Assembly (NCBI RefSeq): GCF_000758665.1
Contig: NZ_CP009285.1
Location: 3,782,001 to 3,846,000, forward strand
Length of the DNA stretch: 64,000 nt
Source of the DNA: Paenibacillus borealis
GTDB lineage: Bacteria; Bacillota; Bacilli; Paenibacillales; Paenibacillaceae
Reading direction: 5' to 3'
This document shows, piece by piece, positions 16,745-19,327 of this stretch. The notes beneath the pieces are model-generated. The model searched no databases and was not told the origin of the DNA. It saw nothing but the letters and a program-made list of their open reading frames with translations. How positions within the stretch are numbered: position 1 is the stretch's first letter; every line of letters begins with the position of its first letter. A program made the translations under genes and the position numbers.

Positions 16745-16774
16745 ATTTTATGAAATTGATAATCATTATCAATT
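16745..16774 (-). promoter_or_regulatory. Perfect Fur box over the siderophore operon promoter
   Basis: TGATAATCATTATCA (16757-16771) is a perfect 7-1-7 Fur site extended to a 21-bp near-palindrome (16754-16774). The minus-strand promoter TTGATA (16772-16767), 16 bases, TAAAAT (16750-16745) has its -35 inside the box. The divergent terpene/prenyltransferase gene begins 133 bases to the right and might also be affected. Confidence 0.92.
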
Positions 16775-16906
16775 GTATGACTGTTAAAACTTTAATTGTT
16801 TATTGCCCGTTTGTCAATCCTTAACTTGATTTCGTAACCATGCTGCCATTTGTTCGTATAAGGTTAAAAAGTGTGATCCCCATCTGCCCAAGGAACCGAA
16901 TGCAGC

Positions 16907-19327
16907 ATGATAAACCAATATGAAGCTAAGGTTGTGCATCCTATAAATGAAATTGTTAACGAACATCCCCATACAGGTTATCAGCTGGCAGAGCATAAGG
17001 CTGCCCGCTACTTAAGCTCACTGCATAATCAGATGAAGAGCAAATCATCTGTGACGGCGTTAATGGCGGATATCCGTGAGTGGAAAAAGAAGCATATCCG
17101 GCGCTTCTCCGTGTTGTCCTTATGGTCACCGGGGAAGAAAAAGCCGGATACCCAAGATTATTACCGCTACATCCAATGGCTGAATTACACAGGTAAGCTG
17201 GATGATTACCTGGACCGGAGCGTCTCTTACATTTATATGAGGGATCTGGGTAAGGCACCGGATTCTCCTGACACACAGAACCGGATCAAGAGGACCATTG
17301 CTGATCTGCACAGGCATCTGCTGAAGTCAGCCCGCTCAGGTGCAGGAGAAGAACCTGATTTCATGAACCTGGCCGGGGTATACCGCTGGGCCCAGAAGGA
17401 AGGGGTAGAAGCTGCAGTGATCTGGGTGATTGCCAAATTAAGATCTGTAGCTGCCCATATTCCGGAGGGAATGAATGCGGAGCATGCCCAGCGCAAGCTG
17501 ATCAAGATTATCGTTGGCGTTATTCTGCATGCTATAGAAGAGATGGACGACAATGTTATACCTGAGGAACGGTCCCGGACTCTGGATGAAGCGATTAGGC
17601 TGGGGTATTCCTATGGGCTAACGTATCCTTTCGTTGACGATCTGCTGGATTCCCAGATACTGACGGTTCCAGAGAAAGAGCAGTACTCCGAGCTGATCCG
17701 TTCGGCACTGCTTACCGGAGTTGTGCCGGTACTTGGGGATTGGTCCGGAGCGAACATGGAGCTGATCAAGTATATTCATTCGGAGCTGTCAGAGGCCTTT
17801 GAGTATATTAAGCAGCAACAGCGGCCGGAGACGCAGCATAGCTTTTTCGGCCAGTCATATGTCTTTTTTCAGGCTCAGGATTTTGATCGTGTCAAGGTAC
17901 TCACCAGGGGGGATTACACTAACGAAGATCTGTATATTCCTGTGATCTTGAAGTCATCGTCGTCCCGGCTGATCGCCCGTTCAGTCATAAGTGCGCCTGC
18001 GGATGAGGGATTTGAAGAACGGACCTTCTTTTTTGGCCTCTACAACCAGCTTGCCGATGATTTCGCGGATATGGCCCAGGATATGAGTGACGAAGCCGTA
18101 ACACCGTATACCTATTATTTGAGATATCATAAGCAAAGGCCGGATCTGATTAATCCTTATGAATTATACTGGGCGGTGATCTCCAATCTGATCCACAGTG
18201 TGTATCATTCCGATGCCAAGGCGCGCGAGGTTATTCTTGACCGGGCAATTAACGGGCTGAAACGTTATAAAGAACGTGCCGGGACGGATAAGTATAATGA
18301 GACGATGGGAATTTTTGCAGCCGGTCATCCGGTGTTTAACGGGCTCATTCAGATCATGGTACGCAAAGCGGATGATGTGGACTTTTTCGATAAGCTGCTG
18401 CGGGACCAGATGATCGAGCACTTGAAGAAGGATGCGAGGGAGCAGAAGGAGTTCTTCGCTACGTTTAAAAGTGTCCGCAGTCTGATCAATGACGAGCTGC
18501 TCTTCACCAAGCCGCAAGAGCTTCCGGCCATGAAGGAGCAGCTGATTGATGCGGCCAATTACAGCCTGGAAGGTGACGGGAAGCGGGTGCGCCCGATACT
18601 TACCTGGGTGATGGGTGTGAAGGAATATGGTTTAGACCCAGCGGCAATTATACCGCTCCTGCGCTCGCTTGAATATATGCATACCGCCTCCCTGATCTTC
18701 GATGATCTGCCTTCCCAGGATAATGCCTCTACCCGCAGAGGGCGCATGACCCTACATGAGCTTCACAGCAGTGCAGTAGCAGAGTTAACCGGGCTCTACT
18801 TGATCCAGAAGGCAATTGGGGAGCAGGCATCACTTAACCGCTTTAAGGCGGAGACTGTGCTTGCCTTAATCCGTTATTCGGCCCGGAAGGCAGAGGATAT
18901 GTGTATGGGCCAGGCAATGGATTTGGATGCAAAAGGTAAGATATTGACGCTGGAGCAGCTGAATAATGTGTGCTTTTACAAAACAGGCGTGGCCTTTGAG
19001 GCATGTCTGGTCATGCCGGCTATGCTGGCTGAGGTTAGCAATGCGGAGATTGGTGCGCTCAAGAGAATTGCTTATCATATGGGGATTGCTTTTCAGATTA
19101 AGGATGATCTGCTTGATGTGGAAGGAGATAAGGATGTGCTTGGTAAACCTGTCGGCAACGATGCGGTTAACAATAATTCGAATTTTGTCTCCATTCTCGG
19201 ACAGGAGGGGGCCAGTAAAGAGATGTGGGATCACTACTGCAAGGCCACAGAGGCACTGCGCGAGATCCCGCGTAATATTACTTTCCTGAAGCATTTGATG
19301 AATTATGTGGTGAATAGGGAGCGGTAA
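16907..19327 (+). CDS. Two-domain isoprenoid enzyme: cyclase-like half fused to prenyl diphosphate synthase
   Basis: This 806-residue protein looks like two class I isoprenoid folds in tandem. The C-terminal half (about 530-806) is a canonical E-type prenyl diphosphate synthase: GDGKRVRP (556-563, isopentenyl diphosphate site), first aspartate-rich motif DDLPSQDNASTRRG (599-612), YKTG (691-694), and second motif KDDLLD (732-737). The N-terminal half (about 120-480) has DDLLD at 244-248 and DDFAD at 384-388, about 140 residues apart, the distance expected of the two metal motifs of the same fold. It lacks the GKR element, as do terpene cyclases. Cyclase-then-prenyltransferase order is known from fungal bifunctional terpene synthases. 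The start is ATG 16907 behind AAGGAA. The product is unknown. The 3' end overlaps the convergent hydrolase gene by 50 bases. Confidence 0.82.
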   Translation: MINQYEAKVVHPINEIVNEHPHTGYQLAEHKAARYLSSLHNQMKSKSSVTALMADIREWKKKHIRRFSVLSLWSPGKKKPDTQDYYRYIQWLNYTGKLDDYLDRSVSYIYMRDLGKAPDSPDTQNRIKRTIADLHRHLLKSARSGAGEEPDFMNLAGVYRWAQKEGVEAAVIWVIAKLRSVAAHIPEGMNAEHAQRKLIKIIVGVILHAIEEMDDNVIPEERSRTLDEAIRLGYSYGLTYPFVDDLLDSQILTVPEKEQYSELIRSALLTGVVPVLGDWSGANMELIKYIHSELSEAFEYIKQQQRPETQHSFFGQSYVFFQAQDFDRVKVLTRGDYTNEDLYIPVILKSSSSRLIARSVISAPADEGFEERTFFFGLYNQLADDFADMAQDMSDEAVTPYTYYLRYHKQRPDLINPYELYWAVISNLIHSVYHSDAKAREVILDRAINGLKRYKERAGTDKYNETMGIFAAGHPVFNGLIQIMVRKADDVDFFDKLLRDQMIEHLKKDAREQKEFFATFKSVRSLINDELLFTKPQELPAMKEQLIDAANYSLEGDGKRVRPILTWVMGVKEYGLDPAAIIPLLRSLEYMHTASLIFDDLPSQDNASTRRGRMTLHELHSSAVAELTGLYLIQKAIGEQASLNRFKAETVLALIRYSARKAEDMCMGQAMDLDAKGKILTLEQLNNVCFYKTGVAFEACLVMPAMLAEVSNAEIGALKRIAYHMGIAFQIKDDLLDVEGDKDVLGKPVGNDAVNNNSNFVSILGQEGASKEMWDHYCKATEALREIPRNITFLKHLMNYVVNRER

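Follow-up and report, generated by a model that had tools for sequence, protein, structure and literature searches.

Does a single bacterial protein build a prenyl diphosphate and cyclise it, as the bifunctional terpene synthases of fungi do? This question is raised by a gene of Paenibacillus borealis (NCBI RefSeq assembly GCF_000758665.1), located in a window of 64,000 nucleotides (positions 3,782,001 to 3,846,000 of contig NZ_CP009285.1, the single contig of 8,156,808 bases that makes up the host genome) and encoding a protein of 806 residues in two halves, here called the fusion protein. A first-pass annotation, made from the letters of the window, had read it as a cyclase-prenyltransferase fusion resembling the fungal enzymes. 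Based on the analysis described below, we give slightly better than an even chance (roughly 0.53) to the reading that the fusion protein is a bifunctional bacterial terpene synthase of class I, with a layout like that of the fungal chimeras and a prenyl-synthase-like N-terminal domain. We regard the fusion itself and the identity of the C-terminal half (C-half) as firm and the relationship of the N-terminal half (N-half) to prenyl synthases as moderately supported; that the N-half acts as a cyclase is an inference.

The Asp-rich motifs DDLLD (residues 244 to 248), DDFAD (384 to 388), DDLPSQD (599 to 605), and KDDLLD (732 to 737) and the element GDGKR (556 to 560) were all confirmed in a single 806-residue frame, as first described. 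The first and second motifs are separated by 140 residues in the N-half and by 134 in the C-half. All 113 distinct full-length relatives share Asp-244, -245, -248, -384, -385, -388, -599, -600, -605, -733, -734, and -737, and the motif pairs are therefore beyond chance. This count carries a selection bias: loci L011 to L090 were retrieved by peptide patterns overlapping both N-half motifs, the counting script demanded the string TYP..DD..D, and the 40 loci out of profile searches (30 and 10) all passed a similar filter. The one locus failing the motif filter, L045, nonetheless has DDLLD and DDLAD intact; it was passed over by the narrow motif pattern, as were L024 and L080. The ratio of nonsynonymous to synonymous substitutions (dN/dS) was 0.08 to 0.20 in the N-half and 0.06 to 0.08 in the C-half (five pairs, with dS above 1 in three). 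Mean pairwise identity was 0.69 for residues 85 to 499 and 0.74 for residues 540 to 805, falling to 0.47 in the linker (residues 500 to 539). The window protein holds a fifth DDxxD-like string, DDYLD (residues 99 to 103), whose conservation was looked for among the relatives and not found. The start codon is uncertain (16907 to 16945): many relatives have Met where the window protein has Ile-13 (codon ATA), a TAAGG-like stretch precedes this position, and the first 12 residues may be untranslated.

The C-half is a prenyltransferase, as had been claimed: PF00348 matches residues 545 to 782 with an E value of 9.4e-46 and 156.5 bits, above the cut-off of 27. The model nearest to it was that of farnesyl diphosphate (FPP) synthase, yet the score lay below the cut-off of this model (209.3 versus 275 bits), and the best solved match was 5ayp, a farnesyl diphosphate synthase. 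Besides the motif aspartates, K559, R562, H592, R610, R611, K692, and K747 are identical in 113/113 relatives; together with GDGKR, these residues presumably bind isopentenyl diphosphate (IPP) and the allylic diphosphate, roles that we carry over from FPP synthase. At the first motif of the C-half, the fusion family reads H-T-A-S-L-I-F-D-D, whereas five solved enzymes (farnesyl diphosphate synthase or geranyltranstransferase) read H-[TA]-Y-S-L-[IV]-H-D-D, with Tyr at place -5 from the motif; this place is Ala (A594) in 112 of the 113 relatives and Ser in one. An aromatic residue at -5 restricts prenyl synthases to FPP, and a small residue permits geranylgeranyl diphosphate (GGPP) or longer chains. 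Since Ala replaces the Tyr of FPP synthases, the product of the C-half is probably C20 or longer, as judged from one residue, A594. We rejected the fusion gene as the housekeeping FPP synthase because the genome has a separate, clear one (401.6 bits versus the cut-off of 275); two HepT-like enzymes are also encoded there, both under the cut-off of the HepT-like model.

Profile comparison relates the N-half, at a distance, to the same enzymes. With hhalign, a profile of 127 N-halves matched that of 32 canonical prenyl synthases with a score of 36.5 (E value of 7.2e-4) over 176 columns; the N-half profile left out L127 and L097 (length) and L175, L176, and L177 (missed by the split pattern), and P0240 and P0170 entered it unsplit. 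For scale, prenyl synthases and squalene/phytoene synthases, which share a fold, scored 38.4 in the same comparison. Among the controls for the N-half profile, six reversed sets reached at most 21.3 and 90 unrelated neighbour families at most 26.5. Forty random subsamples scored 28.2 to 41.2 (mean, 35.9) against prenyl synthases, compared with 15.3 to 23.0 against reversed prenyl synthases. In 34 of the 40 subsamples the second motif of the N-half lay in register on that of the prenyl synthases, and in 14 of these 34 the first motifs did so too. Furthermore, hhalign aligned K349-S350 with the KT pair of prenyl synthases and VTPY of the N-half with ITLP. Relative to the first motif, the landmarks of the C-half are QxxD at +70, KT at +93, Q at +131, and DD at +134, and those of the N-half follow in the same order (QxxD at +80, KS at +105, Q at +137, and DD at +140). 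Taken together, the profile scores, the registers, and the order of landmarks point to a likely origin of the N-half as a class I domain derived from a prenyl synthase.

Several results weigh against this kinship or against the cyclase role built on it. The hhalign probability was a modest 26%, and the N-half profile scored 20.9 (E value of 0.096) against the C-half profile of its own family. The first motif of the N-half fell on the second motif of prenyl synthases in 3 of the 40 subsamples (three more were unclear), and it was placed likewise in the best matches to a plain prenyl synthase hidden Markov model, which matched 127/127 N-halves at 7.8 bits or less and also matched 8 reversed and 5 shuffled ones. 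A reversed squalene synthase control reached 31.2 at most, once, and thereby overlapped the lowest of the subsample scores; for this reason the odds of the bifunctional reading and of its more far-reaching form were slightly lowered and those of two rivals raised. When nine diverse N-halves were searched against Pfam, PF00348 appeared in two, with a best E value of 0.015, and in one an unrelated family did better (0.0072), so that E values of this order carry little weight. The second motif of the N-half is DDxxDxxxD in 113/113 relatives and not an NSE-type triad. Besides, an invariant basic cluster, RKxxK (R196, K197, and K200), stands 44 to 48 residues before the first N-half motif, comparable to K559 at 40 residues before the first motif of the C-half, and could still bind a second diphosphate, which makes the loss of second-substrate binding uncertain. 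By reading of the sequence, literal GGKR and RR after the first motif are absent from the N-half. The claim that the IPP element is restricted to the C-half holds for literal GxGKR, with invariant RKxxK as a caveat.

The N-half had also been described as too diverged to be placed in a known family, and our searches bear this out, both of its metal motifs being invariant. The N-half of the window protein matched no Pfam family, PF00348 included, at an E value of ≤10, and none of the nine diverse N-halves matched a Pfam terpene synthase family. Profiles of 27 and 9 N-halves searched against PDB chains to an E value of 10 gave no cyclase and no convincing solved relative; the sole prenyl synthase among the matches covered 27 positions (E value of 0.63). 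Candidates tried and rejected were Terpene_syn_C_2 (score of 13.6, with one sequence at hand, from 1 of 149 genomes and none in the host genome), SQS_PSY (PF00494; subsample scores of 11.9 to 19.0 versus 15.4 to 31.2 for reversed controls), and DUF2600 (PF10776; score of 22.3, with subsamples at 16.2 to 26.1 versus 15.8 to 24.4 for reversed controls). The DUF2600 family of tetraprenyl-beta-curcumene synthases, including YtpB, likewise consists of terpene synthases of class I and occurs in the same hosts; the P. borealis genome holds one member (L124), and no profile similarity to the N-half was detected. The same genome encodes a squalene/phytoene synthase family protein (L099) nearest HpnD, under the cut-off of that model. 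Helical periodicity of the N-half was 0.80, and the 95th percentile of unrelated families was 0.71; this says little, as the helical C-half (0.66), squalene synthases (0.70), and DUF2600 (0.66) lie at or under that percentile.

On the bifunctional reading, the C-half would condense dimethylallyl diphosphate with IPP to an all-trans prenyl diphosphate, probably C20 or longer. The N-half would be a strongly diverged prenyl synthase relative that retains two Mg-binding Asp-rich motifs and a Lys (K349) at the place of the allylic-diphosphate Lys, without literal GGKR and RR. It would accept the product of the C-half and ionise its diphosphate, and, without IPP to add, the resulting cation would cyclise or eliminate to give a terpene. 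Building, passing on, ionising, and cyclising the chain in this way is the simplest mechanism because the chain-building C-half sits in the same protein. No conserved tailoring genes accompany the gene, and an extracytoplasmic function (ECF) sigma factor probably turns it on in Paenibacillus.

The fungal prenyltransferase-terpene synthases (PTTS), such as PaFS, TvTS, and MpMS, have the same order of parts, namely, an N-terminal DDxxD domain of class I, to which the N-half is putatively assigned, followed by a C-terminal prenyltransferase. In PMC8307374, this architecture is called unique to fungi, and PMC9177416 deals with fungal chimeric terpene synthases that form triterpenes. In contrast to the fungal PTTS, the fusion protein is bacterial, its N-half profiles match no cyclase among solved chains, and its second N-half motif is DDxxDxxxD in place of an NSE-type triad. 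Of the proposed likeness to the fungal enzymes, the layout of parts is borne out and a shared cyclase domain is not; because the N-half has no detectable cyclase relation and carries DDxxDxxxD, the likeness is architectural only. The fusion protein may thus work like a fungal PTTS without being one. Compared with the E-prenyl diphosphate synthases (PF00348; IspA and GGPP synthases), of which the C-half is a member and the N-half a probable distant relative, the fusion protein differs in having two tandem class I-like domains and in an N-half without GGKR and the RR after the motif.

Terpene synthases derived from prenyl synthases are also on record elsewhere. In insects, substitutions in the IPP-binding motif serve to recognise such enzymes (PMC12376265), and in rust fungi the change of one Arg in this motif gave a GGPP synthase terpene synthase activity, the NSD triad being argued not to be absolutely required (PMC7484799). 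According to the same papers, the Asp-rich motifs of these enzymes are kept and their IPP-binding residues altered, a pattern that the N-half may share, with its Asp-rich motifs kept, literal GGKR and RR absent, and invariant RKxxK nearby. These enzymes differ in that they have one domain, branched off recently, and still resemble prenyl synthases clearly; the N-half has diverged much further, is bacterial, and shares its chain with a prenyl synthase that looks functional.

The N-half might instead be a second prenyl-transferring site, which would hand the C-half product to an acceptor other than IPP, such as a prenyl diphosphate, a peptide, or a small molecule, by the logic known from squalene/phytoene synthase and ComQ. 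Its prenyl-synthase-like profile would suit such a site, as would a double DDxxD of the kind found in transferases, as opposed to the NSE triad of most cyclases, and the invariant basic residues R196, K197, and K200 ahead of the first motif. We nevertheless consider prenyl transfer unlikely: the squalene/phytoene synthase profile scored 11.9 to 19.0, below its reversed controls, and among the neighbours, which were grouped and not annotated individually, no conserved acceptor or maker of one was seen (the best family occurs in 14/78 loci). Quite improbable, in our judgment, is a single-function prenyl diphosphate synthase whose N-half is regulatory or sets chain length, like the silent small subunits of heteromeric prenyl synthases. 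The N-half is indeed fused to an intact prenyl synthase, and databases call these proteins polyprenyl synthetase or similar, but silent small subunits lose their Asp motifs, whereas a silent N-half is hard to reconcile with motifs invariant in 113/113 N-halves and purifying selection (dN/dS of 0.08 to 0.20). In the open-licence PMC literature, which leaves most subscription papers and all preprints outside, we found no earlier report on the fusion family and, in particular, none characterising it as a single-function prenyl synthase, the case named in the first-pass annotation as one that would overturn it.

To a class I site with an acyclic product, i.e., a linear hydrocarbon or a prenyl alcohol, we assign a slim chance. 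Class I enzymes with acyclic products are known, and metal motifs retained while the literal IPP-binding element is gone are what such a site would show, but the sequence offers nothing that separates an acyclic product from cyclisation.

The fusion gene is widespread, though not universal, in the taxonomic family of the host and sporadic outside it. By profile search, the N-half was present in 163 of 295 genomes sampled from this family, representing 11 of 19 genera; a class-level sample gave 43 of 398 genomes, 34 of the 43 belonging to the host's family, and a phylum-level sample gave 6 of 299, with the host genome counted. The 43 class-level matches are fusions, because their open frames span 776 to 841 residues. 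When a collection of named genomes was scanned by pattern, 449 of 470 stretches were confirmed, and the 80 that were kept come from Paenibacillus and also from Bacillus, Neobacillus, Brevibacillus, Fontibacillus, and Clostridium. The closest of the named loci is from Paenibacillus phytohabitans (L011; 90% identity), although the collection may omit nearer genomes. In a protein search, 7999 candidates were scored and 1363 homologues were obtained at an E value of ≤0.001, the best 120 of which are 791 to 842 residues long. Database names among the matches listed were "polyprenyl synthetase family protein," "geranyl transferase," "Farnesyl diphosphate synthase," "geranylgeranyl pyrophosphate synthase," and "hypothetical protein"; the family is currently annotated by its C-half alone. 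Two protein searches for free-standing N-domains gave 141 and 177 matches at an E value of ≤10, and the best 120 of each resemble fusion-family members or pieces of them (the contigs of the pieces were unchecked). One sequence of 429 residues (P0170) consists of the N-half alone and is probably truncated, and the metagenomic P0230 and P0240 are the most distant members seen, with 35 to 41% identity in the N-half. Five genomes (G818, G841, G891, G923, and G968) have two N-half profile matches apiece, which are second copies or split genes.

Upstream of the fusion gene lies an ECF-sigma-like promoter element, GTAACC-N15-CGTAT, which fits what we take to be the ECF sigma consensus (AAC, a 16-base spacer, and CGT). 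Of 126 stretches upstream of the fusion gene, 100 contain the pattern GNAAC[CT]-N15-CGTA[TA], versus 5 of 2392 upstream stretches of other open reading frames (ORFs) in the same loci. The 126 stretches, L045 not among them, are not independent, as some genomes are present twice and the promoter sequences include 73 distinct ones. By source, the element was found in 71 of 85 loci from L005 to L090, in 28 of 40 loci from L143 to L182, and in the window. Seven of the 26 loci without it are named Bacillus, Neobacillus, Clostridium, or Clostridia (L069, L074, L076, L081, L082, L089, and L090), and some are Paenibacillus (e.g., L060 and L088). In the host genome, GTAACC-N14..16-CGTAT has 12 matches, a small excess over the 8 of a control read backward; ten of the 12 are inside ORFs, one is the site at 16834 to 16859, and the remaining one (L223; spacing of 16) is intergenic, with no same-direction ORF close behind. 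Because the element precedes the gene, an ECF sigma factor is the probable switch. Sporulation sigma promoters showed no clear enrichment upstream, in a comparison in which the stretches of minus-strand loci were wrong. In L008, L030, L047, L156, and similar loci, a long conserved leader separates the promoter element from the start codon; it contains inverted stretches, for example CCATGGAG...CTCC...CATGG, and is possibly a structured RNA.

A more far-reaching proposal, to which we give somewhat less than even odds, is that the fusion protein represents the founding bacterial synthase combining a prenyltransferase and a cyclase, that its N-half belongs to a new class of cyclases that arose from prenyl synthases independently of known cyclases, and that it yields an unknown C20 to C30 terpene, widespread in Paenibacillus and under ECF sigma control. 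If this is true, fungi and Bacillota came independently to single-chain enzymes that both produce and cyclise their substrate, and the annotation of the gene as a plain polyprenyl synthetase has hidden a terpene made by a large genus of soil and roots. The fusion family would then be a natural test of the conversion of a prenyl synthase into a terpene synthase, and the conserved promoter element offers a route to the physiological trigger.

Table 1. Features of the fusion gene and its upstream region (positions are those of the window)
Feature	Residues	Position	Strand	Basis or conservation among relatives
ECF-sigma-like promoter element GTAACC-N15-CGTAT		16834..16859	+	47 bases before ATG at 16907
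Fusion gene, 806 amino acids plus stop		16907..19327	+	ORF with translation; relatives from protein and profile searches
N-terminal domain, putatively class I prenyl-synthase-like	85-500	17159..18406	+	hhalign versus 32 canonical prenyl synthases
N-domain first Asp-rich motif DDLLD	244-248	17636..17650	+	D244, D245, D248 113/113
N-domain QDFDR	324-328	17876..17890	+	Place of prenyl synthase GQxxD by order and spacing
N-domain K349-S350	349-350	17951..17956	+	hhalign on prenyl synthase KT pair; K349 113/113, S350 112/113
N-domain second Asp-rich motif QLADDFADMAQD	381-392	18047..18082	+	Q381, D384, D385, D388, D392 113/113
Linker, less conserved	501-539	18407..18523	+	Mean pairwise identity
C-terminal prenyl diphosphate synthase domain	540-805	18524..19321	+	PF00348
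C-domain GDGKR	556-560	18572..18586	+	K559 113/113, R560 112/113
C-domain A594 (place -5) to first Asp-rich motif DDLPSQD	594-605	18686..18721	+	
C-domain K692-T693	692-693	18980..18985	+	113/113
C-domain second Asp-rich motif KDDLLD	732-737	19100..19117	+	D733, D734, D737 113/113

No neighbour of the fusion gene is widely conserved, and a conserved gene cluster was rejected, the commonest neighbour family being that of the 14/78 loci mentioned above. At 16755 to 16773, some 60 bases ahead of the ECF-like element, is a perfect palindrome, ATTGATAATCATTATCAAT, which resembles a Fur box; it fronts a divergently oriented gene that encodes a Peripla_BP_2 protein and is followed by a FecCD permease gene. 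At the other end, the fusion gene and a convergent alpha/beta hydrolase ORF share their last 50 bases (19278 to 19327).

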